Shown: positions 1,783-32,757 of the stretch, piece by piece
Layout of the letters: each line of letters starts with the position of its first letter
Numbering within the stretch: the first letter of the stretch is position 1
Assembly: GCF_003234965.1 (NCBI RefSeq)
Contig: NZ_QKVK01000008.1
Location: forward strand, 1 to 64,000
Length of the DNA stretch: 64,000 nucleotides
Direction: 5' to 3'
From: Aestuariivirga litoralis
GTDB taxonomy: Bacteria; Pseudomonadota; Alphaproteobacteria; Rhizobiales; Aestuariivirgaceae
Translations under genes and position numbers: made by a program
Notes under the pieces: generated by a model
The model's database searches: none
The model's input: only the letters and a program-made list of their open reading frames with translations
What the model was told of the DNA's origin: nothing

Positions 1783-3093
1783 ATGGCTGACCTTCGCTCG
1801 AACTTCATCGGCATCAAGTCTCCCAATCCCTTCTGGCTCGCGTCCGCTCCGCCGACCGACAAGGAATACAACGTGGTGCGCGCCTTCAAGGCGGGCTGGG
1901 GTGGTGTGGTGTGGAAGACGCTGGGCGAGGAAGGCCCGCCGATCGTCAACGTCAATGGCCCGCGCTATGGCGCGATCCATGGCGCCGACCGCAGGCTCCT
2001 CGGCCTCAACAACATCGAGCTCATCACCGACCGGCCGCTGGAGGTGAACCTCCAGGAGATCAAGAAGGTGAAGCGCGAATGGCCGGACCGCGCGATGATC
2101 GTGTCGATCATGGTGCCCTGCAACGAGGACTCGTGGAAGGCCATCCTGCCGCGCGTCGAGGAGACGGGCTGCGACGGCATCGAGCTGAACTTCGGCTGCC
2201 CGCATGGCATGAGCGAGCGCGGCATGGGGGCCGCCGTCGGCCAGGTGCCGGAATACATCGAGATGGTCACCCGCTGGTGCAAGCAGTATTCGCGCATGCC
2301 GGTGATCGTGAAGCTGACGCCCAACATCACCGACATCCGCTACCCCGCGCGTGCGGCCAAGAAGGGCGGGGCGGACGCGGTGTCGCTCATCAACACCATC
2401 TCTTCCATCGTCTCCGTCGACCTCGACAATTTCGCGCCCATGCCGACGATCGACGGCAAGGGCAGCCATGGCGGCTATTGCGGCCCGGCGGTGAAGCCCA
2501 TCGCGCTCAACATGGTGGCCGAGATCGCGCGCGACCCCGAGACGCGCGGACTGCCGATTTCCGCCATCGGCGGGGTGACCACCTGGCGCGATGCGGCGGA
2601 GTTCATCGCCATGTCGGCCGGCACGGTGCAGGTGTGCACGGCGGCCATGACCTATGGCTTCCGCATCGTCGAGGAAATGAAGACGGGTCTTGCCCGCTGG
2701 ATGGATGAGAAGGGCTTCTCGACCATCGAGGACTTCCGCGGCCGCGCGGTGCCAAATGTCACCGACTGGCAGTACCTCAACCTGAACTATGTGACCAAGG
2801 CCCATATCGACCAGGACCTCTGCATCAAGTGCGGCCGCTGCTATGCCGCCTGCGAGGACACCTCGCACCAGGCCATCTTCAAGGAAAAGGACGGCAAGCG
2901 GCACTTCGAGGTGAATGACGCCGAATGCGTGGCCTGCAATCTCTGCGTGGAAGTCTGCCCGGTGGACAACTGCATCACCATGGTGCGGCAGACCGAGGGC
3001 GTGGATCCGCGCACCGGGCGCAAGATCAACCCCGACTATGCGAACTGGACGACGCATCCCAACAACCCGATGGCGCTGAAGGCCGCCGAATAG
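1783..3093 (+). CDS. preA: NAD-dependent dihydropyrimidine dehydrogenase subunit PreA
   Basis: This 436-residue catalytic subunit holds FMN in a dihydroorotate-dehydrogenase-like barrel (about residues 5-310) and ends in a 2[4Fe-4S] ferredoxin domain with Cys347/350/353/357 and Cys382/385/388/392. With PreT it carries out the first step of reductive pyrimidine breakdown. The active-site segment NFGCPHGMSERGMG aligns well with mammalian dihydropyrimidine dehydrogenase. The residue matching the mammalian catalytic Cys671 is Val152, which I recall is also Val in E. coli PreA. An N-terminal region typical of the long eukaryotic enzyme is absent, being supplied by PreT. Confidence 0.95.
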   Translation: MADLRSNFIGIKSPNPFWLASAPPTDKEYNVVRAFKAGWGGVVWKTLGEEGPPIVNVNGPRYGAIHGADRRLLGLNNIELITDRPLEVNLQEIKKVKREWPDRAMIVSIMVPCNEDSWKAILPRVEETGCDGIELNFGCPHGMSERGMGAAVGQVPEYIEMVTRWCKQYSRMPVIVKLTPNITDIRYPARAAKKGGADAVSLINTISSIVSVDLDNFAPMPTIDGKGSHGGYCGPAVKPIALNMVAEIARDPETRGLPISAIGGVTTWRDAAEFIAMSAGTVQVCTAAMTYGFRIVEEMKTGLARWMDEKGFSTIEDFRGRAVPNVTDWQYLNLNYVTKAHIDQDLCIKCGRCYAACEDTSHQAIFKEKDGKRHFEVNDAECVACNLCVEVCPVDNCITMVRQTEGVDPRTGRKINPDYANWTTHPNNPMALKAAE

Positions 3094-3182: not shown

Positions 3183-3935
3183 ATGCACGGGACCCCGCCC
3201 AGCATCATTCCGGACGTGTTGCAGCGCTGCGACCACTGCGCCGTGCGTCATCAGGCCGTCTGCGGTGCCATGGACGATGTGCAGGTCAAGAAGCTCGCCC
3301 AGATCGCGCACCGCAAGAAGGTGCCTGCGGGCCAGACCATCATCTCGGACGAGGAGCCGGTCGATTTCTTCGCCAATGTCATCTCGGGCGCCATCAAGCT
3401 GACCAAGACCCTGCCCGACGGCCGGCAGCAGATCGTCGGCCTGCTCTTCGCGCCGGACTTCCTCGGCCGCGCCTATTCCAAGCACAATCCCTACACGGCG
3501 GAAGCGGCGACAGACGTCGAGATCTGCACCTTCCCCAATGCCGCCTTCGAGCGCCTCGTCGGCGAATATCCCGGGCTGCAGCAGCGCCTGTTCCAGCACA
3601 CGCTGGACGAACTCGACGCGGCGCGCGACTGGATGCTTCTCCTCGGCCGCAAGACGGCGGAGGAGAAGGTTGCAAGCTTCCTCCACATGCTCGCCCGCCG
3701 CAGCCTGCTGACCGGCTGCGTGCACAAGGCAAGCCCGGGTTCGGCGGCCTTCGAGCTTCCGCTCACCCGCTCCGACATGGCGGACTACCTGGGCCTCACC
3801 ATCGAGACGGTGAGCCGCCAGCTCACCCGCCTCAAGACTTCCAATGTCGTCAGGCTCAGCACCAACCGCCTGATCATGGTGCCCGATCTCGACCGTCTTG
3901 CGCAGGCTGCCGGACAGGACAATCATCGTCATTGA
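3183..3935 (+). CDS. fnrL: FnrL-type oxygen-sensing Crp/Fnr regulator
   Basis: This 250-residue Crp/Fnr protein has Cys16, Cys19, Cys27 (CX2CX7C, the alphaproteobacterial FnrL spacing) and Cys115 in VEICTFP, aligned with Cys122 of E. coli FNR. All four ligands for an oxygen-labile [4Fe-4S] cluster are therefore present. A cyclic-nucleotide-like sensor domain spans about 35-150. The C-terminal helix-turn-helix contains ETVSRQL, the recognition helix of proteins that read TTGAT. It should activate or repress genes under low oxygen. The ribosome site before the ATG is weak. A half-perfect FNR box overlaps its own stop codon, upstream of the usp gene. Confidence 0.93.
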   Translation: MHGTPPSIIPDVLQRCDHCAVRHQAVCGAMDDVQVKKLAQIAHRKKVPAGQTIISDEEPVDFFANVISGAIKLTKTLPDGRQQIVGLLFAPDFLGRAYSKHNPYTAEAATDVEICTFPNAAFERLVGEYPGLQQRLFQHTLDELDAARDWMLLLGRKTAEEKVASFLHMLARRSLLTGCVHKASPGSAAFELPLTRSDMADYLGLTIETVSRQLTRLKTSNVVRLSTNRLIMVPDLDRLAQAAGQDNHRH

Positions 3936-4001: not shown

Positions 4002-4844
4002 ATGAGTTACAAGACGATCCTGGTCTCCCTCAACGAAGTGGGCCGCCTCTCGGAGCTGGTGGCCGCCGCCGTGAGCATCGCGCGGGCGACGGGCGGGCAT
4101 GTCTCGGGCCTCTACGTGGTGCCGGCGGTGCAGGTCTATCCCTCTGTCGGATTCGAGGCCGCACCCCAGGTGTTCGAGGGCAACCGCAGCTTTTTCAAGG
4201 ACAATGCCCAGCGCGTGAAGCAGGCCTTCGAGGCAGCGATGCAGGCCGAGGGGCTGTCGCATGATTTCCACCAGGTCGATGCGAGGACACCGGTGATTGC
4301 CGACGAGGTGGTGGCGGCGGGCCGCGTCGCCGACCTCGTCATCGTGTCCGCCACCAACCCGGAAGAGATCACCGGGGTGGAGCGTGACTTCGTCGAGCAG
4401 ACGGTGATGGCGCTTGGCCGCCCGGTCATCGTGCTGCCGGCCAAGGCGCGCTCGGCGATCTCGCTCGACGAGGTGGTGATCGGCTGGGATGGCGGCCGCG
4501 AAGCGGCCCGCGCCAGCTTCGATGCGCTGCCGCTGCTGAAGAAGGCGGGCAAGGTGCGCGTCGTCCGAATCGACCCGCAGAAGGACCCGAGCCTGCGCGG
4601 CAGTGTTGCCGGCGCCGACCTGGCCGAAGCCCTGGCGCGCCATGGCGTGAAGGCCGAGGCGCAGGGCTATCCCACCGACGGCCAGGACGAGGGCCAGGCG
4701 CTGATGCGCTGCGCCGAGGATGCCGGTGCCGGCTTGATCGTGATGGGCGCCTATGGACACAGCCGGCTGGCCGAGTTCATTTTCGGCGGCGCCACGCGCT
4801 TCGTGCTGAACCGCCTCGTCTGCCCCGTGCTGATGTCTCACTGA
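4002..4844 (+). CDS. Universal stress protein, tandem Usp domains
   Basis: This 280-residue cytosolic protein has two UspA-like folds, about 1-145 and 150-280. The first begins with YKTILVSLNE. The second ends with the nucleotide-binding pattern GAYGHSRLAEF followed by FGGAT, then the usual VLNRLVCPVLMSH tail. Tandem Usp proteins are typical members of FNR/FixK-controlled low-oxygen regulons in rhizobia and relatives, which fits the FNR box at 3932. The start follows a strong GGAGGAGG site. The next gene starts ten bases after the stop and probably shares its transcript. Confidence 0.9.
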   Translation: MSYKTILVSLNEVGRLSELVAAAVSIARATGGHVSGLYVVPAVQVYPSVGFEAAPQVFEGNRSFFKDNAQRVKQAFEAAMQAEGLSHDFHQVDARTPVIADEVVAAGRVADLVIVSATNPEEITGVERDFVEQTVMALGRPVIVLPAKARSAISLDEVVIGWDGGREAARASFDALPLLKKAGKVRVVRIDPQKDPSLRGSVAGADLAEALARHGVKAEAQGYPTDGQDEGQALMRCAEDAGAGLIVMGAYGHSRLAEFIFGGATRFVLNRLVCPVLMSH

Positions 4845-5223: not shown

Positions 5224-5315
5224 GGGTTTCACCCTTCCCACAAGGGGAAGGGGAGCATTGCAGGGCAGTCATCCTCACGGCGGACTTGCCACCACCTTCC
5301 TAAGCCGCTACCCAT

Positions 5316-5346
5316 CGCCCCGATTTCTCACAATCGGGGCGTTTTT
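5316..5346 (+). terminator. Terminator-like hairpin touching the leuB start
   Basis: A perfect 10-bp stem CGCCCCGATT / AATCGGGGCG (5316-5325, 5332-5341) with a six-base loop is followed by TTTTT. It has the full form of an intrinsic terminator, but the leuB ATG follows after a single C at 5348. The only purine-rich stretch that could serve as the leuB ribosome site (GGGG, 5336-5339) lies inside the stem. It may end the usp unit, or act as an attenuator or translational switch for leuB. Confidence 0.8.
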
Positions 5347-5347
5347 C

Positions 5348-6457
5348 ATGGCGAGCTACAATCTGTTCCTGCTTCCGGGCGACGGCATCGGTCCGGAGGT
5401 GATGAAGGAAGTCGAGGCGATCATCGCCTGGTTCAATGCTGAAGGAATTGCCAGGTTCGAGGTCGACCGCGGCCTCGTCGGCGGCTCCGCCTATGATGCC
5501 CATGGCCAGGCCATCTCGGAAGCCGACATGGCCAAGGCCATGGCCTCCGACGCCGTACTCTTCGGCGCGGTTGGCGGTCCGAAGTGGGACAAGGTGCCCT
5601 ATGACGTGCGCCCCGAGGCGGGCCTGCTGCGGCTGCGCAAGGATCTCGGCCTCTTCGCCAACCTGCGCCCGGCGATCTGCTATCCCGCCCTTGCCGATGC
5701 GTCCTCGCTGAAGCGCGAGGTGGTCGAGGGCCTCGACATCCTGATCGTGCGCGAGCTGACGGGTGGCGTCTATTTCGGCGAGCCCAAGACCATCACCGAC
5801 CTCGGCAACGGCCAGAAGCGCGGCATCGACACGCAGGTCTACGAGACCTACGAGATCGAGCGCATCGCGCGCGTCGCCTTCGACCTCGCCAAGACGCGGC
5901 GCAACAAGGTGTCCTCCGCCGAGAAGCGCAACGTGATGAAGACGGGCGTCCTCTGGAACGAGATCGTCACGCGCATCCACGCCGCGGAATATCCGGGCGT
6001 GCAGCTCGAGCACGTGCTGGCCGACAACTGCGCCATGCAGCTCGTGCGCTGGCCGAAGCAGTATGACGTGATCGTCACCGACAATCTCTTCGGCGACGTG
6101 CTGTCCGACGTGGCGGCGATGCTGACGGGTTCGCTCGGCATGCTGCCCTCGGCCTCGCTCGGTGCACCCGATGCGAAGACGGGCCGCCGCAAGTCGCTCT
6201 ACGAGCCGGTGCATGGCTCTGCCCCTGACATCGCCGGCACAGGTGCGGCCAACCCGATTGCCATGATCGCCAGCTTCGGCATGGCGCTGCGCTATTCGCT
6301 GGGGCTCGGCGACTGGGCCGACAAGCTGGACCAGGCCATCGCCGCGGTGCTGGCGCAGGGCATCCGCACCAAGGACATCGCCGGCAGCCAGCCCGCCAAT
6401 GCGACGACCACGCAGATGGGTGCGGCGATCTTGGGTGAGTTGAAGAAGCTGGCCTGA
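5348..6457 (+). CDS. leuB: 3-isopropylmalate dehydrogenase
   Basis: LeuB oxidatively decarboxylates 3-isopropylmalate with NAD in leucine synthesis. The 369-residue product starts [18 protein letters not shown], the family N-terminus, and has the Mg/substrate loop [11 protein letters not shown] near residue 243, the RxLR region around 95-110 and the NAD loop GSAPDIAG near 300. The ATG at 5348 gives a standard-length protein. An in-frame TTG at 5258 has a better ribosome site but would add 30 residues encoded through the hairpin. leuC and leuD are not in the window. Confidence 0.96.
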
Positions 6458-6619: not shown

Positions 6620-7903
6620 ATGATCGATCTGCTGGTGAAAAACGCGGTGCTGCCGGATGGGCGCAAGGTGGATATTGCTTGCGTGGGTGGCAAAATCGCC
6701 GAGGTGTCTCCCTCGCTTGATGCCGCGGCGCGCGAGACGATCGATGCGAAGGGCTATCTCGTCTCGCCGCCCTTCATCGACGCGCATTTCCACATGGATG
6801 CGACGCTGTCACTCGGCATGCCGCGCTATAACCAGTCAGGGACCTTGCTCGAGGGCATAAGGCTGTGGGGCGAGTTGAAGCCGCTCTTGACGCATGAGGC
6901 GGTGATCGAGCGGGCGATGCGCTATTGCGACCTTGCGGTGTCCCAGGGCCTGCTTGCCATCCGCACCCATGTGGACGTGTGCGATGACCGGCTCCTGTGC
7001 GTCGAGGCGCTGCTGGAGGTGAAGAAGCGCATCAAGCCCTATATCGACCTGCAGCTCGTCGCCTTTCCGCAGGATGGCTTCTACCGCGACCCCCATGCGA
7101 AGAAGAACCTGCTGCGCGCCCTCGACCTCGGCGTCGACGTCGTCGGCGGCATCCCGCATGGCGAGCGGACGATGGCCGATGGCGCGCGGAGCATGACGGA
7201 GCTGTGCGAGATCGCGGCGGAACGCGGGCTGCTCGTCGACATCCATTGCGACGAGAGCGATGATCCCTGGTCGCGCCATGTCGAAGCGCTCGTTTATGAA
7301 ACCCAGCGGCTGGGGCTTCAGGGCCGCGTGGTGGGCTCGCACCTCACTTCGATGCATTCGATGGACAACTACTATGCCTCGAAGCTGATCGGGCTGATGG
7401 TGGAGGCCGATCTGCACGCAACGCCCAACCCGCTCATCAACATCACGCTGCAGGGCCGGCACGACAGCTACCCCAAGCGCCGCGGCATGACGCGCGTGCC
7501 GGAGCTGCGCGCGGCGGGGATCAACGTGTCCTTCGGCCATGATTGCGTGATGGACCCGTGGTATCCGCTGGGTCAGGGCGACATGCTGGAGGCGGCCTCG
7601 ATGGGTATTCATGTGGGTCTGATGACGAGCCCCGAACAGATGCGCTGGGCCTTCGATGCGGTGACGGTGAACCCGGCCAGGGCGCTGCACCTCGAAGGCT
7701 ATGGACTGGAGAAGGGCTGCAATGCTGATTTCGTGGTGCTGCAGGCAAAGAACCCGGTGGAGGCGCTGCGGCTGAAGGCCAACCGGCTGAAGGTGGTGAA
7801 GCGCGGCAAGGTGATCGCCGAGACGCCGGAACGCGTGGCGGCGCTGCATCTGGAAGGACGGCCGCAGACGGTGAACGGGGCGGATTACGCGCCCTCACGT
7901 TAA
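6620..7903 (+). CDS. codA: Cytosine deaminase family amidohydrolase, probable 5-methylcytosine deaminase
   Basis: This 427-residue CodA homologue matches E. coli CodA with a constant offset of five: metal ligands His56, His58, His209 and Asp308, catalytic Glu212 and His241, and substrate Gln151. The residue after the metal Asp (Asp314 in E. coli) is Cys309 here. Published work on CodA homologues found that loss of Asp314 marks enzymes that deaminate 5-methylcytosine to thymine. The gene lies inside a pyrimidine breakdown island that could consume thymine or uracil. The ATG at 6620 follows GCGAGGGG. Plain cytosine deamination is the alternative. Confidence 0.9.
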   Translation: MIDLLVKNAVLPDGRKVDIACVGGKIAEVSPSLDAAARETIDAKGYLVSPPFIDAHFHMDATLSLGMPRYNQSGTLLEGIRLWGELKPLLTHEAVIERAMRYCDLAVSQGLLAIRTHVDVCDDRLLCVEALLEVKKRIKPYIDLQLVAFPQDGFYRDPHAKKNLLRALDLGVDVVGGIPHGERTMADGARSMTELCEIAAERGLLVDIHCDESDDPWSRHVEALVYETQRLGLQGRVVGSHLTSMHSMDNYYASKLIGLMVEADLHATPNPLINITLQGRHDSYPKRRGMTRVPELRAAGINVSFGHDCVMDPWYPLGQGDMLEAASMGIHVGLMTSPEQMRWAFDAVTVNPARALHLEGYGLEKGCNADFVVLQAKNPVEALRLKANRLKVVKRGKVIAETPERVAALHLEGRPQTVNGADYAPSR

Positions 7904-7986
7904 CCGTCACCCCGGCGAAAGCCGGGGCCCAGCTTTCCACTTTGTTTTCGCCCAAAGCGGGGTCCCGGCTTTCGCCGGGATGACGG
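7904..7986. repeat. Palindromic repeat family A, copy filling the codA/rutR gap
   Basis: CCGTCACCCCGGCGAAAGCC at the left and GGCTTTCGCCGGGATGACGG at the right are near-perfect inverted ends, each also holding an inner CCCGGC/GCCGGG hairpin. The unit occupies exactly the 83 bases between the codA stop and the convergent rutR stop. It probably serves as a two-way transcript end. Confidence 0.9.
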
Positions 7987-8616
7987 TCATTGGGAGCGCG
8001 GCTTCAGCCCTTCGACGAAGAGCCGCGTCAGCGTTTCCTCGGCCTTCGTCATCACCTCCGGGCCGCCGCCGACCACGGCCTGCACCTGGGGTTCGAAATC
8101 GGCATAGTGCTGGGTGGTGGCCCAGATGGCGAAAATCAAATGGTGGGGGTCGACCGCGTTGAGCCTGCCTTCCGCGATCCAGCCCCGGATGATGGCGGCC
8201 TTCTCGTCCACCAGGTCCTTCAGCGGGCCCTTGAGATAGGTGCCGATGGCGGTGGCGCCGTGCAGGATCTCGTTGGCGAAGAGGCGCGACGCCTTGGGGT
8301 TGTCGCGCGACAGGCGGATCTTGGTGCGGATGTAGCGGGTGATTTCCTCGATCGGCTCGCCGGCGGGGTCGAGGCTGCGCAGGGGCTCCAGCCAGTCGTG
8401 CAGGGTGTGCTCCAGCACCGCGACGTAGATGTCTTCCTTGCGGCGGAAATAATAGAGCAGGTTGGGCTTGGACAACCCGCAGTTCGTGGCGATCTGGTCC
8501 ACCGTGGCGCCGCGGAAGCCATAGGCGGAGAACACCTCCAGGGCGGCCTTGAGGATCAGCTCCTCGTTCTGGGCCTGGATGCGGGTTTTCCGGGGGATTG
8601 CGGTGGTTTCGCCCAT
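7987..8616 (-). CDS. rutR: RutR-type TetR-family pyrimidine regulator
   Basis: The 209-residue protein has a TetR helix-turn-helix near residues 38-58 (ATVDQIATNCGLSKPNLLYYF) and a ligand domain closely resembling E. coli RutR, including LLYYF, the ASRLF segment, the DPHHLIF(A)IWA segment and TQHYADFEPQV. RutR senses uracil and thymine and represses pyrimidine-use genes. Here it is transcribed away from the ABC importer, with a 16-bp RutR-like site in the shared promoter and another before preTA. It therefore probably controls a reductive pathway rather than the oxidative Rut pathway, whose rutA/rutB genes are not in the window. Confidence 0.92.
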   Translation of the reverse strand: MGETTAIPRKTRIQAQNEELILKAALEVFSAYGFRGATVDQIATNCGLSKPNLLYYFRRKEDIYVAVLEHTLHDWLEPLRSLDPAGEPIEEITRYIRTKIRLSRDNPKASRLFANEILHGATAIGTYLKGPLKDLVDEKAAIIRGWIAEGRLNAVDPHHLIFAIWATTQHYADFEPQVQAVVGGGPEVMTKAEETLTRLFVEGLKPRSQ

Positions 8617-8635: not shown

Positions 8636-8651
8636 TTGATCGCTTGGTCAA
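8636..8651. promoter_or_regulatory. RutR-like operator in the rutR/ABC divergent promoter
   Basis: TTGATCGCTTGGTCAA fits TTGACCA-N2-TGGTCAA with a perfect right half and 5 of 7 in the left half. It sits 20 bases before the rutR start and 51 before the importer ATPase start, so one bound dimer could control both directions. Confidence 0.72.
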
Positions 8652-8701
8652 GAGCGGATAGCCTTCGCACAAGCAACAAGAGCAACAGGGGAGGAGCCGA
8701 G

Positions 8702-9478
8702 TTGGCGGGCCCGGTCATTTCGGCACGCGAGCTGAGCCTCGTATTCCAGACGGCGGACGCGCCCGTCTATGCGCTGTCCAAGGTCAACCTGGAGGTCGAG
8801 GACGGCGATTTCGTTTCCTTCATCGGGCCCTCGGGCTGCGGCAAGACCACGCTGCTGCGCGTCATCGCCGACCTGGAGCAGGCGACCTCCGGCGCCATCA
8901 CCGTCAATGGCATGACCCCGCAGGAGGCCCGCCTCAAGCGCGCCTATGGCTATGTGTTCCAGGCGCCCGCGCTTTACCCGTGGCGCACCGTCGAACGCAA
9001 TGTCGGGCTGCCGCTGGAAATCATGGGCCTCGACCATGCGCCGGAACGGATTGAGCGCAACCTCGAACTCGTCAACCTCAAGGGCTTCGAGAAGAAATAT
9101 CCCTGGCAGCTGTCGGGCGGCATGCAGCAGCGCGTGTCGATTGCCCGCGCGCTGGCCTTCGACCCCAAGCTGCTGCTGATGGACGAGCCCTTCGGCGCGC
9201 TGGACGAAATCGTGCGCGACAAGCTGAACCAGCAGTTGCTGGAATTGTGGGACCGCACGAAAAAGACCGTTGTCTTCGTCACGCACTCGATTCCGGAAGC
9301 CGTGTTCCTGTCCACCAAGATCGTGGTGATGAGCCCCAGGCCAGGCCGCATCATCGACGTGATCGAGACCAACCTGCCGAAGAACCGCACGCTGGACATT
9401 CGCGAGACGCCGGAATTCCTGGCGATTGCGCACCGCGTGCGCGAAGGCCTGAAGGCCGGGCACAGCTATGAGGACTGA
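8702..9478 (+). CDS. ABC importer ATPase, NitT/TauT type, pyrimidine cluster
   Basis: This 258-residue ATPase has a standard Walker A (GPSGCGKTT), Q-loop, signature LSGGMQQR, Walker B LLLMDEPFGALDE and H-loop VTHSI. I place the start at the TTG at 8702 because GGGGAGGAG lies six bases before it; a longer frame would begin inside the operator. It powers the importer formed with the two permeases and binding protein that follow. Divergence from rutR and the shared operator argue for a pyrimidine base or derivative as cargo. Confidence 0.9.
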   Translation: MAGPVISARELSLVFQTADAPVYALSKVNLEVEDGDFVSFIGPSGCGKTTLLRVIADLEQATSGAITVNGMTPQEARLKRAYGYVFQAPALYPWRTVERNVGLPLEIMGLDHAPERIERNLELVNLKGFEKKYPWQLSGGMQQRVSIARALAFDPKLLLMDEPFGALDEIVRDKLNQQLLELWDRTKKTVVFVTHSIPEAVFLSTKIVVMSPRPGRIIDVIETNLPKNRTLDIRETPEFLAIAHRVREGLKAGHSYED

Positions 9479-10381
9479 GTGAGCGCCGCACCCGCCATCG
9501 CCGCGAAGCCTGCCGCCCGTGAGCCGGGCAATGCCTTCCCCGTGGCTGTCGTGTGTCTTGCCATCCTGCTCGTCTGGTATGTCGCCGCCATCCCGATGAA
9601 CTGGGTGGTGACGGGGCCAAAGATCGAAGGGGCCGGCGGCGGGCTTTCCAACACGCTTGCCTTCTCGTGGAACGAGGCGCGCCCCGTGCTGCCGGCGCCG
9701 CACCAGATTGCGCAGGAACTGTGGAAAAGCGTGTTCACGGTGGCGCCGTGGAGCGTGAAGTCGCTGCTCTACCACGGCTGGGTGACGCTCTCCTCCACGC
9801 TCGTCGGCTTCATCCTGGGTTCATTGCTGGGCATCGCGCTGGCCATTGCCATCGTGCATGTGAAATTCCTGGCGAAGAGCCTGATGCCGTGGATCATCGC
9901 CTCGCAGACCATTCCCATCCTCGCCATCGCGCCCATGGTGATCGTGGTGCTGGGCTCATTGGGCTTCACCGGGCTGGTACCGAAGTCGCTGATCTCGATG
10001 TATCTCTGCTTCTTCCCCGTCACCATCGGCATGGTGAAGGGCCTGACCTCGCCCGAGGTGATGCAGCTCGACCTGATGCGCACCTATAATGCCTCGACCT
10101 CTCAGGTGCTGTGGAAGCTGCGTTTTCCCGCGTCCGTGCCGTTCCTGTTCACGTCGCTCAAGGTGGCGGTGGCGATCGCGCTCACCGGTGCCATCGTCGG
10201 CGAGTTGCCGACGGGGGCCATCGCCGGCATCGGGGCGCGATTGCTGCAGGGCTCCTACTACGGCCAGACGGTGCAGATCTGGGCGGCGCTGTTCATGGGG
10301 AGTTTCCTCGCCGCCGCCCTCGTCTGGCTGGTCGGTGTCGCCGAGCGCTTCACGCTGCGCCGCATGGGGGTGAAGCCGTGA
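9479..10381 (+). CDS. ABC importer permease 1
   Basis: A 300-residue BPD_transp_1 permease with an N-terminal membrane segment near 20-40, a periplasmic stretch and a five- to six-helix core ending near residue 290. The EAA-type loop is seen as LMRTYNASTSQVLWKLRFPAS. The GTG start directly follows the ATPase stop, showing translational coupling. It pairs with the second permease in a NitT/TauT-like (ThiX/SsuC-like) importer. Confidence 0.88.
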   Translation: MSAAPAIAAKPAAREPGNAFPVAVVCLAILLVWYVAAIPMNWVVTGPKIEGAGGGLSNTLAFSWNEARPVLPAPHQIAQELWKSVFTVAPWSVKSLLYHGWVTLSSTLVGFILGSLLGIALAIAIVHVKFLAKSLMPWIIASQTIPILAIAPMVIVVLGSLGFTGLVPKSLISMYLCFFPVTIGMVKGLTSPEVMQLDLMRTYNASTSQVLWKLRFPASVPFLFTSLKVAVAIALTGAIVGELPTGAIAGIGARLLQGSYYGQTVQIWAALFMGSFLAAALVWLVGVAERFTLRRMGVKP

Positions 10382-11148
10382 GCGGTTCGCGCCTTACCGA
10401 CATTCTCTACCCAGCCGTCTTCGGCATCGGCGTGCTGATCCTGTGGGAACTGATCGTCAAGAGTTTCGGCGTGCCCGCCGTGCTGCTGCCGGCGCCCTCG
10501 GCGATCTGGGCCAAGCTCATCGCCTCGCTGCCCACGCTTGGCGTCGATTTCGTGCAGACCGTGCTGCGCGCGGTGATCCCCGGCTGGATCATCGGCTCGC
10601 TGTCGGGATTCCTGGCGGCCCTGCTGTGCGACCGCATCCCCTTCCTGCGGCGCGGGCTGCTGCCGCTCGGCAACCTGGTGGCGGCACTCCCCATCGTCGG
10701 CGTCGCCCCCATCCTCGTCATGTGGTTCGGCTTCGACTGGCCGTCCAAGGCGGCGATGGTCGTCGTCATGACCTTCTTCCCCATGCTGGTGAATGCCGTG
10801 GCGGGGCTGCAGGCGTCAGGACACCTCGAGCGCGACCTGATGCGGAGCTATGGCGCCTCCTGGTGGCAGACGCTGGTGAAGCTCAGGCTTCCGGCCGCCA
10901 TGCCCTTCATCTTCAATGCGCTGAAAATCAACTCCACCCTTGCCATGATCGGCGCCATCGTTGCCGAATTCTTCGGCACGCCCATTGTCGGCATGGGCTT
11001 CCGCATCTCGACGGAAGTTGGCAGACTGGGGCTGGACATGGTCTGGGCCGAGATCGCGGTGGCTGCCATCACGGGTTCGGCTTTCTACGGTCTCCTGGTG
11101 TTCCTCGAACGCCGGGTGACCTTCTGGCATCCGTCCTACAGAAAGTAG
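10378..11148 (+). CDS. ABC importer permease 2
   Basis: A 256-residue permease of the same family, with the coupling loop DLMRSYGASWWQTLVKLRLPA near residues 156-176. The GTG start overlaps the previous stop as GTGA, so the two are translated in a chain. Two different permeases rather than a homodimer is a known but less common arrangement in the NitT/TauT group. The binding protein follows after 32 bases. Confidence 0.88.
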   Translation: MSGSRLTDILYPAVFGIGVLILWELIVKSFGVPAVLLPAPSAIWAKLIASLPTLGVDFVQTVLRAVIPGWIIGSLSGFLAALLCDRIPFLRRGLLPLGNLVAALPIVGVAPILVMWFGFDWPSKAAMVVVMTFFPMLVNAVAGLQASGHLERDLMRSYGASWWQTLVKLRLPAAMPFIFNALKINSTLAMIGAIVAEFFGTPIVGMGFRISTEVGRLGLDMVWAEIAVAAITGSAFYGLLVFLERRVTFWHPSYRK

Positions 11149-11180
11149 GCGGCAACTCAAAACTGGAGGAGACAGGGACA

Positions 11181-12176
11181 ATGAAGAAATTTCTGATGGC
11201 CGCAGCCGCCGCGGGCGCGCTGCTGGTGAGCGGCTCGGCCGCCATGGCGGAAGCCGTGAAGCTGCAGCTGAAGTGGGTGACGCAGGCGCAGTTCGCCGGT
11301 TACTACGCCGCAGCTGCCAAGGGCTTCTACAAGGACGCCGGCCTCGACGTGACGATCCTCCCCGGCGGCCCCGACATCAACCCGCAGCAGGTGCTGGCCG
11401 GCGGCGGCGCCGACGTGGTGGTCGACTGGATGCCGTCTGCGCTGGCCACGCGCGAGAAGGGCTCGCCCGTCGTCAACATCGCGCAGCCCTTCGCCAAGTC
11501 GGGCATGATGCTCACCTGCCGCGTCGACACCGGCATCAAGACCCCGGCCGACTTCAAGGGCAAGACGCTGGGCGTGTGGTTCTTCGGCAACGAGTATCCC
11601 TTCCTGTCGTGGATGAGCCAGCTGGGCCTGCCCACCACCGGCGGCCCGGATGGCGTGACCGTCATCAAGCAGGGCTTCAACGTCGACCCGCTCCTGCAGA
11701 AGCAGGCCGACTGCATCTCGACCATGACCTACAACGAGTACTGGCAGCTGATCGAGGCCGGCATGAAGCCGGAGGAACTCATCACCTTCAAGTATGAGGA
11801 CCAGGGTGTCGCGACGCTGGAAGACGGCCTCTACGTGCTCGAGGACAAGCTGAAGGATCCGGCCTTCGTCGAGACCATGGCGAAGTTCGTCAAGGCCTCG
11901 CAGAAGGGCTGGGACTATGCCCGCGCCAATGGCGATGAAGTGGCCCAGATCGTCATCGACAATGACGCCTCGGGTGCCCAGACGCTGGATCACCAGAAGC
12001 GCATGATGTCGGAAGTGAACAAGCTCACCGAAGGCTCCGACGGCACGCTGGACGTGGCCGCCGCCGAGCGCACGGTCGAGACCCTGATGAAGGGCGGCTC
12101 CGACCCGGTCATCACCAAGAAGCCGGAAGGTGCCTGGACCTCGGTCGTGACCGACAAGGCCAAGACCCTGCAGTAA
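11181..12176 (+). CDS. ABC importer substrate-binding protein, NMT1/THI5-like
   Basis: This 331-residue periplasmic protein has a signal peptide (cleavage near residue 24, after SAAMA) and an NMT1/THI5-like fold with the typical opening LKWVTQAQFAGYYAAAAKGF. Members of this family bind thiamine precursors, riboflavin or pyrimidine-like compounds. Placement with RutR, the deaminase and dihydropyrimidinase suggests a pyrimidine base such as thymine, uracil or a methylated cytosine. The start follows GGAGG. A strong terminator right after it ends this transcript. Confidence 0.88.
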   Translation: MKKFLMAAAAAGALLVSGSAAMAEAVKLQLKWVTQAQFAGYYAAAAKGFYKDAGLDVTILPGGPDINPQQVLAGGGADVVVDWMPSALATREKGSPVVNIAQPFAKSGMMLTCRVDTGIKTPADFKGKTLGVWFFGNEYPFLSWMSQLGLPTTGGPDGVTVIKQGFNVDPLLQKQADCISTMTYNEYWQLIEAGMKPEELITFKYEDQGVATLEDGLYVLEDKLKDPAFVETMAKFVKASQKGWDYARANGDEVAQIVIDNDASGAQTLDHQKRMMSEVNKLTEGSDGTLDVAAAERTVETLMKGGSDPVITKKPEGAWTSVVTDKAKTLQ

Positions 12177-12214: not shown

Positions 12215-12243
12215 CTTTGCGTTCGTTGAAGGAGAGAGCAGCC

Positions 12244-13698
12244 ATGAGCACACTCATTCGCGGCGGCACCGTCGTGAACCATGACCTTTCGCAGCGCGCC
12301 GACGTGCTGATCGACGGCGGCCGGATCGTCGCCGTGGGCGAGAAGCTCGAGGCGCCGGCCGGCGCCGAGATCGTCGATGCGGGCGGCTGCTATGTCATGC
12401 CGGGCGGCATCGACCCGCACACCCACATGGAACTGATGTTCATGGGCAAGGTCTCGGCGGACGATTTCGAGTGGGGCACCAAGGCGGGGCTTTCCGGCGG
12501 CACGACGATGATCGTCGACTTCTGCATTCCCGCCCCGGGCGAATCGATGCTCGCCGCCTACCAGGCCTGGCGCCACAAGGCCGAGAAGGCCTGTGCGGAT
12601 TACTCCTTCCACATGGCGGTGACACAGTGGTCGCCGCAGATCCACGACGAGATGGAAACCGTCGTGAAGACCTATGGCATCAACACCTTCAAGCACTTCA
12701 TGGCCTACAAGGGGGCCTTGATGGTGAATGACGATGAGCTCTACAATTCCTTCCGCCGCTGCGCGCAGCTGGGTGCGCTTCCGCTGGTGCATGCCGAGAA
12801 TGGCGATGTCGTCGCGCGCATGCAGGCCGATCTCCTGGCGCGCGGCGTCACCGGGCCCGAGGGCCACAGCTATTCACGCCCGCCGGAAGTCGAGGGCGAA
12901 GCGGCGAACCGCGCCATCATGATCGCCGACATGGCAGGCTGCCCGCTCTACATCGTGCATGTCTCCTGCGAGCAGACGCATGATGCGATCAGGCGCGCCA
13001 AGCAGGCCGGCCAGCGCGTCTTCGGCGAGCCGCTGGTGCAGTATCTCGTGCTCGATGACTCGGAATACCAGAACAAGGACTGGGACTATGCTGCGGGCCG
13101 CGTGATGAGCCCGCCCTTCCGCAACAAGAAGCACCAGGATTCGCTGTGGGCCGGCCTCCAGTCCGGCACCCTCTCGGTCGTGGCCACCGACCATTGCTCC
13201 TTTACCATCGAACAGAAGCGCAATGGCGTGGGCGACTTCACCAAGATCCCCAACGGCACGGGCGGCCTCGAGGATCGCCTGCCGGTCCTGTGGAATGCGG
13301 GCGTCAACACGGGCCGCCTCACCAAGGAGGAGTTCGTCGCCGCCACCTCCACCAACATCGCGCGCATCCTCAACATGTATCCGAAGAAAGGTGCGGTGCG
13401 GGTGGGGTCCGATGCCGACCTCGTGATCTGGGACCCGAAGGCCACCAAGACGATCACCGCCAAGAAACAGGTCTCGCGCATCGAATACAATGTCTTCGAG
13501 GGCTATACCTGCACCGGCGTGCCGCGCACGGTGTTCTCGCGCGGGCGCATCGCCTGGCACGAGGGCGACATGCGGGCGAAGCCCGGCGACGGCGAATTCG
13601 TGCGCCGCGAGCCCAATGCGCCGGTGAACGTCGCCAACGCCATCTGGAAGGGTCTGACGCAACCCAAGCCCGTGGCCCGCCCCGATATCGTGCCGTGA
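12244..13698 (+). CDS. hydA: Dihydropyrimidinase / D-hydantoinase
   Basis: This 484-residue enzyme opens dihydrouracil and dihydrothymine to N-carbamoyl-beta-amino acids, the second step of reductive pyrimidine breakdown. The binuclear Zn ligands fall at family positions: His59, His61, carboxylated Lys150 in TFKHFMAYKG, His183, His239 and Asp316 in ATDHCSF. Length and motif spacing match bacterial D-hydantoinases. GAAGGAGAG precedes the ATG. It sits between the importer and the Zn-dependent carbamoyl hydrolase that would use its product. Confidence 0.95.
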   Translation: MSTLIRGGTVVNHDLSQRADVLIDGGRIVAVGEKLEAPAGAEIVDAGGCYVMPGGIDPHTHMELMFMGKVSADDFEWGTKAGLSGGTTMIVDFCIPAPGESMLAAYQAWRHKAEKACADYSFHMAVTQWSPQIHDEMETVVKTYGINTFKHFMAYKGALMVNDDELYNSFRRCAQLGALPLVHAENGDVVARMQADLLARGVTGPEGHSYSRPPEVEGEAANRAIMIADMAGCPLYIVHVSCEQTHDAIRRAKQAGQRVFGEPLVQYLVLDDSEYQNKDWDYAAGRVMSPPFRNKKHQDSLWAGLQSGTLSVVATDHCSFTIEQKRNGVGDFTKIPNGTGGLEDRLPVLWNAGVNTGRLTKEEFVAATSTNIARILNMYPKKGAVRVGSDADLVIWDPKATKTITAKKQVSRIEYNVFEGYTCTGVPRTVFSRGRIAWHEGDMRAKPGDGEFVRREPNAPVNVANAIWKGLTQPKPVARPDIVP

Positions 13699-14811: not shown

Positions 14812-15882
14812 ATGGAATACCGCCAGCTCGGCCGCTCCGGCCTCAAGGTTTCGCTGCATGCGCTCGGCACGATGAATTTCGCCGGCACCGGCATGTTCGA
14901 GAAGGTGGGGAGCCTCGACAATGCTGAGGCCAGCCGCCTCGTCGACGTGGCGCTGGAGCATGGCGTCAACCTCATCGACACGTCGAACGTCTATTCCACC
15001 GGCCGCTCCGAAACGGCCGTGGGCGAGATCCTGAAGGGCCGTTCCAGCCAGATCCTCGTCGGCACCAAGGTGCGCTTCACCATGGGGCCGGGGCCGAACG
15101 AAGTGGGCCTCTCTCGCTTCCACATCATCGAGCAATGCGAGGCGAGCCTCAGGCGCCTGCAGCGCGACCGCATCGACATCTACTACCTCCACCAGTGGGA
15201 TGGCTCGACCCCCGTCGAGGAGACGATGGAGGCGCTGGACACGCTGGTGAAGCAGGGCAAGGTCCGCTACGTCGCCTGCTCCAACTTCTCCGCCTGGCAC
15301 ATCATGAAATGCCTGATGGCATCCGAGCGCCACAACCTGCAGCGCTTCGTCTGCCAGCAGATCCACTACACGGTCGAGGCGCGCGAGGCGGAATACGAAC
15401 TGATCCCGCTGGCGCTCGACCAGGGCGTGGCGGTGCAGGTGTGGAGCCCGATCGCGGGAGGACTGCTCTCCGGAAAGTTCCGCCGCAACGCGCCGCCGCC
15501 GGACATGTCGCGCCACCTCAACGCCTGGAACGAGCCGCCGATCCGCGACGAGAACCGTCTCTACGACATCATCGACGCCCTGGTGACGATCGGCGAGGCG
15601 CGCGGCGTCTCCGCGGCGCAGGTGGCGCTCGCCTGGCTCGCCGGCCGCGCGGGTGTCGCCAACATCATCGTCGGGGCGCGGACCGAGGCGCAGCTGAAGG
15701 ACAATCTCACCGCCGCCGCGCTGAAGCTGACGGCGGAGGAACGCGCACGGATCGACGCGGTCAGCCTGCTGCCGCTCATCTATCCCTACTGGCACCAGAA
15801 CAGCACGGCGGCCTCGCGTCTGGGCGCGGCGGACCTGTCGCTGCACGCACCGCACCTTGCCCGCGCCAAGCCGCGCATGTGA
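14812..15882 (+). CDS. Aldo/keto reductase
   Basis: A 356-residue aldo/keto reductase with the family landmarks: catalytic Asp and Tyr in NLIDTSNVYSTG, Lys in VGTKVRF, and HQWD in YYLHQWDGSTP. The NADPH-binding end is visible as IVGARTEAQLKDNL. It reduces or oxidises an unknown carbonyl compound. It lies 16 bases before the carbamoyl hydrolase and might act on an aldehyde or semialdehyde made from the beta-amino acids, but substrate cannot be read from sequence. Confidence 0.9.
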   Translation: MEYRQLGRSGLKVSLHALGTMNFAGTGMFEKVGSLDNAEASRLVDVALEHGVNLIDTSNVYSTGRSETAVGEILKGRSSQILVGTKVRFTMGPGPNEVGLSRFHIIEQCEASLRRLQRDRIDIYYLHQWDGSTPVEETMEALDTLVKQGKVRYVACSNFSAWHIMKCLMASERHNLQRFVCQQIHYTVEAREAEYELIPLALDQGVAVQVWSPIAGGLLSGKFRRNAPPPDMSRHLNAWNEPPIRDENRLYDIIDALVTIGEARGVSAAQVALAWLAGRAGVANIIVGARTEAQLKDNLTAAALKLTAEERARIDAVSLLPLIYPYWHQNSTAASRLGAADLSLHAPHLARAKPRM

Positions 15883-15898
15883 TTTCACGGAGTTCACC

Positions 15899-17143
15899 AT
15901 GACATCGAAGACCAACCTCACCATCAACCCGCAGCGCCTGTGGGACAGTCTGATGGAGACCGCGCGGTTCGGCGGCACGCCCAAGGGCGGCATCAAGCGA
16001 TTGACTGTCTCGGATGAGGATAAAAAAGTCCGCGACTGGTTCAAGGCCGAATGCGAGAAGCTGGGCTGCACGGTGGAGGTGGACGAGGTTGGCAACATGT
16101 TCGCCACGCGCCCCGGCAGGCGCAAGGACGTGGCCCCCATCGCCATGGGCTCGCACCTGGACACGCAGCCGACGGGCGGCAAGTTCGATGGCGTGCTGGG
16201 CGTGCTGGGGGCACTGGAGGCCATGCGCACGCTGGTCGACATGGGCTACGAGACCAATGCGCCCATCATGATCGTCAACTGGACCAACGAGGAAGGTTCG
16301 CGCTTCGCGCCCGCCATGCTGTGCTCCGGCGTCTATGCCGGTGTCTTCACCACCGACTTTGCCTACTCGCGCGAGGACCGGCAGGGCATCAGGCTGGGCG
16401 ATGAGCTGGAGCGCATCGGCTACAAGGGCAAGCACAAGGCGGGGGACATCAAGTTCCAGGCCATGTTCGAACTCCACATCGAGCAGGGGCCGATCCTCGA
16501 GGCCGAGAACAAGATGATCGGCGTCGTCACCGGCGTGCAGGGCATGCGCTGGTACGAGGTGACGGTGCGCGGCCAGGAATCGCACACCGGCGCCACGCCC
16601 ATGGGCCTGCGCAAGAATGCGCTGCTGGGTGCCGCCCGCATGATCGAGGCGATCCACCAGGTGGGCATGAACAACCTGCCGGGTGTGGCCTCCGTCGGCT
16701 TGATCGAGAACCGCCCCAACAGCCGCAACGTGGTGCCGGGCGAGGTGTTCTTCACCGTCGACCTGCGCCACCCGGACGAGAAGGTGCTGGACAGGATGGA
16801 AGCCGAATACCAGGCGGCCCTGCCGAGGATCGCCGCCGAAACCGGCGTCGAGGTGGAGGAGAAGCGCATCTGGATCTCGCCCGCGGTGAAGTTCGCAGCC
16901 CCCCTGATCGACTGCGTGCGCGAGGGCGCGAGCCAAGCCGGCTACACGATGCGCGAAATGGCGTCTGGTGCCGGCCATGACGCCGCCTATATCGCGCGCG
17001 TCACCCCCACCACCATGATCTTCGTGCCCTGTCTTGGCGGCATTTCGCACAACGAGGCGGAATCGACGACGCTGGAGGAATGCGGGGCCGGCAGCCAGGT
17101 GCTGCTCAACTCGGTTCTCGCCTATGACCGGACGCTGGCGTGA
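15899..17143 (+). CDS. Zn-dependent N-carbamoyl amino-acid hydrolase (beta-ureidopropionase type)
   Basis: This 414-residue M20 hydrolase of the hydantoinase/carbamoylase group has metal and catalytic residues His86 and Asp97 (GSHLDTQ, KFDGVLG), Glu131/132 (NEEGSRF), His196 (ELHIEQGP) and the late His in GGISHNEAE. It should remove carbamoyl from N-carbamoyl-beta-alanine or N-carbamoyl-beta-aminoisobutyrate, the third reductive step. Allantoate amidohydrolase is a close relative, but dihydropyrimidinase and preTA nearby favour beta-ureidopropionase. Confidence 0.9.
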   Translation: MTSKTNLTINPQRLWDSLMETARFGGTPKGGIKRLTVSDEDKKVRDWFKAECEKLGCTVEVDEVGNMFATRPGRRKDVAPIAMGSHLDTQPTGGKFDGVLGVLGALEAMRTLVDMGYETNAPIMIVNWTNEEGSRFAPAMLCSGVYAGVFTTDFAYSREDRQGIRLGDELERIGYKGKHKAGDIKFQAMFELHIEQGPILEAENKMIGVVTGVQGMRWYEVTVRGQESHTGATPMGLRKNALLGAARMIEAIHQVGMNNLPGVASVGLIENRPNSRNVVPGEVFFTVDLRHPDEKVLDRMEAEYQAALPRIAAETGVEVEEKRIWISPAVKFAAPLIDCVREGASQAGYTMREMASGAGHDAAYIARVTPTTMIFVPCLGGISHNEAESTTLEECGAGSQVLLNSVLAYDRTLA

Positions 17144-31326: not shown

Positions 31327-32757
31327 ATGACCGTAGTGACTAAGGTGAAAGGGTTCGCGGCCGCCGCAGGCTTCGCCGCCACCCTGATGACCGGAGGGGC
31401 CACCTACGCCCTTGCGGATGAAGTGACACTGACCATGGCGGTGCCGGACTGGCCTCCGACCCGCATCATGAAGAAGTTCTTCGACGAGCAGTACAAGCCG
31501 AAGTCCGGCAACACCGTGAAGCTCGACGTCGACTTCATCCCGTGGCCCGACTTCTACACGCGCGTCAACGCGTCGCTGACGTCCGGCGAGCAGAAGTACA
31601 ACTTCATCGTCTCCGACTCGCAGTGGCTGGGCGCCTTCGTGGAAGGCGGCTACTACCGCAAGATCAACGATCTTCTGGATGCCGACCCGGAGTTCAAGAA
31701 GACGCTGATGAGCGTGCACCCCGCACCGCTCGCGGCCTATTCGACCTACCCCTACAAGTCGGAAAACTACTACGGCTTCCCGCAGTTCCCGGACGTCCTC
31801 GTGACCTATGGCCGCAAGGACATCCTGTGCCACGAGGAAGAGCAGAAGAACTTCCAGGCCAAGTACGGCAAGAAGCTGCCCTGCACCGGCGAAGAAATCG
31901 ACGCCATGACCTGGGACGACTTCAAGAACGTGGGCGAGTTCTTCCGCCGCAAGAAGGGCGAGATGCTGGCCGGCGCACCTGCCGAGGACGATTTCTACGG
32001 AATCGCCTTCCAGGCCGGCAAGGGCTACGACTTCTCGTCGATGCAGATCAACGGCTTCATCTGGCAGATGGGCGGCAACATCTGGGATGAAACCCAGGCG
32101 CCGACCGGCCAGGCCGAAGGCGTGGTCAACTCGCCGCAGGCCGTCGCCGCGCTCGAGAAGTACCTGAGCCTGCTCGAGTACATGCCGCCGGTCGCCAAGA
32201 CCGGCACCATGGACATCTTCAAGTCCGACGAGCTGTTCCGCGAAGGCAAGGTCGCGATGAACATCGACTGGATCGGCCTTGGCGAAGCCTCGCTCGATCC
32301 GAAGTCGTCCAAGGTCTCCGACAAGCTGGTCTTCGGCCAGATGCCGGGCACGATGGTCGACGGCAAGAACGTGAAGTGGTCCAACATCGGCGGCCAGCCC
32401 TTCGTGCTGACCACCTGGACGACGCCGGAGCAGACCAAGGAAGCCGTGGACTTCGTGAAGTGGTGGCTGTCTGACGACATCCAGCACCAGTTCGCGGCCT
32501 CCGGCGGTCAGTCGGCTGTGAAGTCGGTCTATGAAGACCCCAAGTACGTGACCTATCGTCCGTGGAACCGCGCCTGGGCCCCGCAGCTCGACTGGCAGAA
32601 GGACGTGTGGCACGTGCCGCAGTTCTTCGAGCTCCTGACGCAGCAGCAGGACCAGTTCGACCTTGCCATCACCGGCAAGCAGGACGCCAAGACCACGCTG
32701 GATAACATCGCCAAGTTCCAGCAGGACCTGCTGAAGAACGCCGGCCTCATCCAGTAA
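31327..32757 (+). CDS. Sugar ABC importer substrate-binding protein
   Basis: A 476-residue family 1 extracellular binding protein with an N-terminal signal (about 30 residues, ending YALADE). Features include the WPDFYTRVNASLTSGEQKYN region and WQMGGNIWDE, typical of carbohydrate binding proteins. It is long for the family. Many aromatic residues line the C-terminal half. It delivers a sugar, polyol or derivative to the two permeases downstream. GGGAGGA precedes the start. Confidence 0.9.
   Translation: MTVVTKVKGFAAAAGFAATLMTGGATYALADEVTLTMAVPDWPPTRIMKKFFDEQYKPKSGNTVKLDVDFIPWPDFYTRVNASLTSGEQKYNFIVSDSQWLGAFVEGGYYRKINDLLDADPEFKKTLMSVHPAPLAAYSTYPYKSENYYGFPQFPDVLVTYGRKDILCHEEEQKNFQAKYGKKLPCTGEEIDAMTWDDFKNVGEFFRRKKGEMLAGAPAEDDFYGIAFQAGKGYDFSSMQINGFIWQMGGNIWDETQAPTGQAEGVVNSPQAVAALEKYLSLLEYMPPVAKTGTMDIFKSDELFREGKVAMNIDWIGLGEASLDPKSSKVSDKLVFGQMPGTMVDGKNVKWSNIGGQPFVLTTWTTPEQTKEAVDFVKWWLSDDIQHQFAASGGQSAVKSVYEDPKYVTYRPWNRAWAPQLDWQKDVWHVPQFFELLTQQQDQFDLAITGKQDAKTTLDNIAKFQQDLLKNAGLIQ

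Follow-up and report, generated by a model that had tools for sequence, protein, structure and literature searches.

A cytosine deaminase homologue with Cys at position 314 and Gly at position 186 near genes for reductive pyrimidine catabolism in Aestuariivirga litoralis

Three characterised relatives of the Escherichia coli cytosine deaminase CodA that lack Asp314 reportedly deaminate 5-methylcytosine, and Rsp0341 from Rhodobacter sphaeroides is said to be a 5-methylcytosine deaminase. The 5-methylcytosine deaminase Kpn00632 of Klebsiella pneumoniae (PDB: 4R7W, 4R85 and 4R88) carries Ser at position 314 and Tyr at position 186, the latter being Phe in E. coli CodA (PDB: 1K6W). A CodA variant with this Asp (numbered 315 in PMC6186785) exchanged for Ala gains activity on 5-methylcytosine, as stated in an excerpt of PMC6186785 that cites Hitchcock 2014. 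AtzC, an N-isopropylammelide isopropylaminohydrolase of the same amidohydrolase group, has Asn at position 314 and His in place of Glu217 according to an excerpt of PMC4577212.

The window, the whole stretch of 64,000 nucleotides of A. litoralis DNA that was analysed, contains a codA homologue at 6620–7903 on the forward strand (427 amino acid residues, then a stop). The protein shares 42% identity with E. coli CodA; its active-site blocks align with those of CodA free of gaps in both HMMER and BLASTP. It affiliates with the NCBIfam model PRK07572 (NF005748, 'cytosine deaminase') with 766.8 bits over residues 1–421 (cut-off 438). The best PDB matches of its predicted structure (mean pLDDT 85.6) were E. 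coli CodA and the Klebsiella 5-methylcytosine deaminase, with TM-scores of 0.88–0.93 (Foldseek). An earlier note on this DNA had claimed that the catalytic residues of CodA are all retained, each shifted by five positions, and that Asp314 is replaced by Cys309, and the alignments bear out both: H61, H63, Q156, H214, E217, H246 and D313 of E. coli (crystal numbering) correspond to H56, H58, Q151, H209, E212, H241 and D308, and D314 aligns with C309 (FGHDCVMDPWYPLG against FGHDDVFDPWYPLG; codon TGC, 7544–7546, forward strand). Hence the Asp at 314 by which an E. coli-type CodA is recognised is absent, and the two features used for 5-methylcytosine deaminases (Hitchcock 2014), retention of the CodA catalytic residues and replacement of Asp314, are both present. 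Besides Asp314, the E. coli residues Thr66, Val278 and Phe186 are exchanged, for Ala, Ile and Gly, respectively.

With Kpn00632 the window protein shares the fold, the catalytic residues, the loss of Asp314 and the Ala at Thr66, at an identity of 42% in the Foldseek alignment; the corresponding identity to AtzC is 29–30%. The window protein does not fall into the sequence group of the solved Klebsiella enzyme. The identity of a close plasmid homologue of Kpn00632 is higher to E. coli CodA (59%) than to the window protein (43%). Since the Klebsiella type is thus nearer to E. coli CodA, its activity transfers weakly to the window protein, and Asp314 was probably lost, or gained, independently in the two lines. 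In the phylogenetic tree, three outgroup rows split from the PRK07572 clade (support 100) and served as its root. On the Klebsiella pneumoniae plasmid locus L031 (3971–10217), codB, a PucR-type regulator and codA (Ser314) lie between IS26 and IS1 transposase genes.

All steps of reductive pyrimidine catabolism, namely the dehydrogenase, the dihydropyrimidinase and the N-carbamoyl amidohydrolase, are encoded inside a 17-kb part of the window, the PreT-like subunit matching below cut-offs. Unless stated otherwise, the genes lie on the forward strand. The PreT-like subunit of dihydropyrimidine dehydrogenase (374–1771; glutamate-synthase small-chain-like models, below their cut-offs; its true start may be later) precedes PreA (1783–3093; PRK08318, 740.8 bits, cut-off 335). 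There follow a Crp/Fnr-type regulator (3183–3935), a universal stress protein (4002–4844) and, directly upstream of codA, leuB for 3-isopropylmalate dehydrogenase (5258–6457; TIGR00169, 433.9 bits, cut-off 353), whose model match begins at residue 37, so that the true start is probably later. Downstream, a RutR-like regulator of the TetR family (7987–8616, reverse strand) is convergent with codA and divergent from an importer operon, and scores below both of its cut-offs (PRK15008, 219 bits against 230; TIGR03613, 237 against 368). The ABC importer consists of an ATPase (open frame 8636–9478), a first permease (9479–10381), a second permease (open frame 10111–11148, domain at residues 164–337) and an NMT1/THI5-like substrate-binding protein (10443–12176, domain at residues 282–499 of an over-long frame). 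The operon is followed by a dihydropyrimidinase (hydantoinase; 12217–13698; TIGR02033, 612.3 bits, cut-off 393) and, beyond a lytic transglycosylase and an aldo-keto reductase-like frame, by an N-carbamoyl-amino-acid amidohydrolase, likely a beta-ureidopropionase (15857–17143; PRK09290.1-3, 605.9 bits, cut-off 452; TIGR01879, 433.4 bits, cut-off 204). The last gene, added here, would complete the reductive pathway for uracil and thymine. The preTA genes, the RutR-like regulator, the importer and the dihydropyrimidinase named in the earlier note as flanking codA are thus all present, but preTA does not adjoin codA, as three genes (Fnr-type regulator, universal stress protein and leuB) stand between them.

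Further features of the window and its contig were noted. A gene of the carbon-nitrogen hydrolase family (PF00795; 24218–25276) might provide another candidate enzyme for the N-carbamoyl amidohydrolase step, and a UPF0261 protein, of a family uncharacterised by its Pfam name, is encoded at 40516–41718. Just 3' of codA (7905–7990) lies a GC-rich, inverted, intergenic repeat-like sequence (CCCCGGCGAAAGCCGGGGCCCAGC ... TTTCGCCGGGATGACGG), with a similar one at about 270–315 and similar ones upstream of codA in the congeneric loci L127, L195 and L199. By eye, the upstream region of codA shows a hairpin after leuB and repeat-like sequence. The contig of the window also holds one match to the C5-cytosine DNA methyltransferase family (C25, 143332–144471); as an indication of an own source of 5-methylcytosine, this lone match is not decisive.

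We consider it fairly probable, from residues and gene content, that the window enzyme is a dual cytosine/5-methylcytosine deaminase whose product enters the reductive pathway of the island, and hence a general scavenger of nitrogen from pyrimidine bases rather than a dedicated enzyme. The metal-dependent amidohydrolase of the PRK07572 clade would take the 4-amino group off cytosine, and 5-methylcytosine would be accepted with Cys in place of the charged Asp314, which disfavours a methyl group at C5. The uracil or thymine formed would pass through PreTA, the dihydropyrimidinase and the N-carbamoyl amidohydrolase, yielding beta-alanine or beta-aminoisobutyrate together with ammonia and CO2. Residues, clade, gene content and RutR-like boxes are observed; the two deaminase activities, the passage of the product and the function of each pathway gene are inferred from them. 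The activity of a relative need not carry over to the window protein, because it has Gly at position 186, where nearly all of the clade has Phe.

The earlier note had gone further and proposed a dedicated 5-methylcytosine deaminase that feeds thymine breakdown, so that methylated bases derived from DNA would serve as nitrogen source. Such a dedicated route is possible, but it is not favoured, and we hold it to be unlikely. It agrees with a residue other than Asp at 314, as in the Klebsiella enzyme (Ser), with the retained catalytic residues and with a complete reductive pathway nearby that can take thymine; a near-identical enzyme is moreover present in six congeners, at least four of them with the stretch of RutR-like regulator, importer and dihydropyrimidinase. 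5-Methylcytosine as the purpose of the gene, however, found no support, and the substitution at 314 proved to be clade-wide. In a literature search on 5-methylcytosine with preTA or as sole nitrogen source, no such route was among the matches listed.

Position 314 was read in several sets of loci. In the 115 loci first compared, a set in which the window is counted and a few duplicates are included, the seven catalytic residues were kept throughout (115/115), and position 314 was Cys in 111 and Ser in three, one of these being the Klebsiella plasmid type; Asp occurred in E. coli CodA only. The alignment of 152 clade rows (window left out, a few duplicates inside) had 149 Cys, two Ser, one gap and no Asp. 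Among 141 non-redundant neighbourhood loci, Cys was found in all 140 that were readable, the remaining one being a fragment in which this residue is unreadable. This last set was obtained from 144 loci by removal of identical proteins and comprises 80 named loci (the best 80 of 598), three plasmid loci, 40 loci of the order or class, 20 of the family, and the window; it omits 30 short loci of the class sample, including both clade members with Ser314 (L026 and L028). Rsp0341 probably belongs to the same clade as the window protein, a membership judged from the Rhodobacter family and not from the sequence of Rsp0341 itself: among 198 genomes from the family of an assembly named 'Rhodobacter sp.', 79 had a match (E <= 1e-40), either 54–72% identical (the clade) or 32–36% identical, with none between. 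Cys314 together with Phe186 was present in all 33 loci from this search, in which the best of the 79 matches were read, and from a search of four genomes.

Outside the clade, the class sample (matches in 44 of 385 genomes) yielded eight distant homologues at 34–47% identity, in which position 314 was Asn in three, Ser in two, Cys in two and Asp in one; the catalytic set was kept in seven of the eight. Cys at 314 is therefore a marker of the PRK07572 clade, and the loss of Asp314 is common outside it too. The idea that the exchange of Asp314 for Cys is special to the window gene was rejected, as it is clade-wide and seven of the eight distant homologues are without Asp. Loss of Asp314 alone does not identify a dedicated 5-methylcytosine enzyme, and the frequency of the loss speaks against reading one into the window gene; what Cys309 hints at is that 5-methylcytosine is tolerated, and not that a route is dedicated to it. 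Other CodA-like subfamilies (37–47% identity) are represented by the loci L250–L256; their residue 186 is Asn, and their residue 314 is Ser, Cys or Asn. In genome G196 two genes of these subfamilies lie side by side.

In the clade, the usual neighbour is a BMP-type ABC importer, whereas the window has an NMT1-type importer and reductive genes. In the 141 non-redundant loci, the permease of the BMP-type importer was found in 88, preA in 14, dihydropyrimidinase in 10 and URC1 with URC4 in four; 30 loci had none of the neighbours searched at the identity thresholds applied, and URC4 and preA occurred together in none of the 141. For the 110 loci flanked by 5 kb or more on either side, the counts were 71 for the importer permease, 12 for preA and three for URC1 with URC4. 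The URC pathway degrades uracil and is not known to degrade thymine, so URC-linked members most simply supply uracil from cytosine. In the tree, which came from a quick search and has several weak forks, these members and those linked to the reductive pathway are mixed together in one largely betaproteobacterial section with position 314 unchanged, and the Cys314 of the four URC-linked loci argues against a dedicated 5-methylcytosine enzyme. The occurrence of the clade with both sets of genes fits a general scavenger. Within the window's order, a clade match was found in 40 of 121 genomes, all at 60–100% identity (E <= 1e-60), and at the same threshold no other CodA-like match was found in the 121 genomes. 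As the only CodA-like type there, the clade probably also serves plain cytosine and would probably have to cover it even if 5-methylcytosine were the main substrate. Cytosine deamination in these bacteria is thus probably the task of this clade, which is likely to accept 5-methylcytosine in second place. Apart from the genes of the BMP importer, three families recurred among the neighbours in 39 order-level loci, in four loci each; by eye, one is ABC ATPase-like and two resemble wrong-frame readings of the crude gene caller. An amidase-family gene stands among the BMP-importer and codA genes in many loci (L034, L044, L046, L047, L057, L070 and others).

RutR reportedly senses uracil and thymine, and the box searched for follows the E. 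coli RutR motif. At up to three mismatches, matches in the window were confined to 366–381, 8636–8651 and 32407–32422; shuffled sequences gave a mean of 1.16, and 11 of 100 shuffles reached three, so that the count is not significant. The first box (TTGACCATTTGAACAA, forward strand) lies before preT and the second (TTGATCGCTTGGTCAA, forward strand) between rutR and the importer operon. As the latter sits on the first bases of the ATPase frame, the true start of the ATPase is probably later. Where the contigs reach, the boxes have counterparts at matching positions in congeneric loci: both of them in L127 and L198, the importer box in L195 and L196, and the preT box in L199. Upstream of codA, a RutR-like box was found neither in the window (up to three mismatches) nor in the congeners (up to two), which tells against a dedicated link of codA to thymine breakdown. 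With no such box and with preTA three genes away, codA need not be coregulated with the pathway.

Across the clade, 82 loci were compared for a RutR-like box before the BMP-importer gene: 32 have one at up to three mismatches (for example L070, L077, L084, L092, L133, L135, L159, L200 and L213), 16 at up to two and eight at up to one; the other 50 BMP genes have none at up to three. Markov-resampled sequence gave means of 0.97, 0.13 and 0.03 at three, two and one mismatches (maximum four at three), random places of the same loci gave 2.9, 0.5 and 0.23 (maximum seven at three), and eight permuted palindromes gave 0–4, 0 and 0. Most of the BMP genes (78 of 82) are on the codA strand and within 7 kb of codA. 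The boxes before BMP-importer/codA genes therefore tie the clade to the catabolism of pyrimidine bases, and the BMP-type importer is predicted to carry pyrimidine bases or nucleosides; they speak equally for cytosine and for 5-methylcytosine. Another box pattern, less strict than the first, was discarded, because it had been fitted to the window's own box and its count was circular.

The unusual residue of the window gene itself, overlooked in the earlier note, is Gly181 (codon GGC, 7160–7162, forward strand) at the position of E. coli Phe186, where the sister sequences have Phe. In the 152-row alignment it is the one position where the window protein differs from a residue found in over 93% of the clade and where its congener is the only row to differ in the same way; the rows hold 150 Phe, one Gly (the congener) and one His (L021). 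Among the 141 non-redundant loci, Gly occurs in seven genomes of one genus and Phe in the other 134. The 69 family genomes searched gave matches in 30, with Gly in seven, Phe in 21 and residue 181 unread in two (G534 and G526). Apart from the window, the carriers of Gly181 are G485, G510, G511, G512, G532 and G533, whose proteins are 88–95% identical to that of the window. The seven sequences form one branch (SH-aLRT 99) that requires one change on the tree. Codon 181 is GGC in all seven and TTT or TTC in six sisters, a difference of at least two base changes. Within the group, dN/dS is 0.05–0.15, hence the gene is under purifying selection; a decayed gene as cause of the change from Phe186 to Gly was rejected on this value and the open frame. 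The idea that Gly181 is strictly tied to the island was dropped, the stretch of RutR-like regulator, importer and dihydropyrimidinase being present in four of the six congeners (L127, L195, L196 and L198). In L199 the contig ends at the locus, with PreT, Fnr, Usp and LeuB upstream of codA; in L197, which has Gly181, none of the island genes were seen, and L201 (L036), an 81% identical sister with Phe at 186, has RutR and the importer.

A reshaped pocket is a second alternative to the dual deaminase. Gly181, on top of the clade-wide Cys314, might open the CodA-type pocket on a second side for a base that is bulkier than, or otherwise unlike, those preferred by the CodA homologues described so far, such as 5-hydroxymethylcytosine (present in eukaryotic or phage DNA), isoguanine or an N4-substituted cytosine, and the product might then enter the adjoining reductive pathway; taken together, we regard this as distinctly unlikely. 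Its restriction to one genus, its single origin through at least two base changes and the low dN/dS all accord with such a change. So does the variation between subfamilies expected of a specificity position: a 36% identical homologue from a family member has Phe aligned at 186, and the eight homologues at 34–47% identity have Asn (seven) or His (one), for which reason an invariant Phe186 in all CodA-like enzymes was rejected. Position 186 thus appears to be fixed within subfamilies and different between them, which could also mean a tolerant position. Residue 181 lies four positions past a strand ending at 177 in the predicted barrel and hence, by topology, probably near the barrel mouth, from where it might touch the substrate. 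Phe186 is not among the CodA and AtzC pocket residues listed in the excerpt of PMC4577212, and a literature search for Phe186 or F186 of cytosine deaminase found no mention of it.

That the window protein is a plain cytosine deaminase, with Cys309 having no effect and with no useful activity on 5-methylcytosine, is very improbable: the same Cys in URC-linked members and the clade's position as the only CodA-like type in the order sample agree with it, but the gain of 5-methylcytosine activity on exchange of the CodA Asp for Ala (excerpt of PMC6186785) and the reported activity of three enzymes without Asp314 count against it.

Should the enzyme indeed take 5-methylcytosine, methylated DNA could become a source of nitrogen and carbon for these bacteria, and the cycle of a common DNA modification would be closed. 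Of greater use are the comparative results, namely position 314 as a clade marker, the boxes of the BMP importers and the group with Gly for Phe186. The many BMP-importer/codA loci with RutR-like boxes point to a predicted pyrimidine importer. The window protein itself seems a rather unremarkable enzyme for salvaging bases, with a single residue that is unusual. CodA with 5-fluorocytosine is used as a suicide gene, and for this reason the Gly181 group, a natural experiment on CodA specificity, is of interest; it is the part that could surprise and deserves attention.
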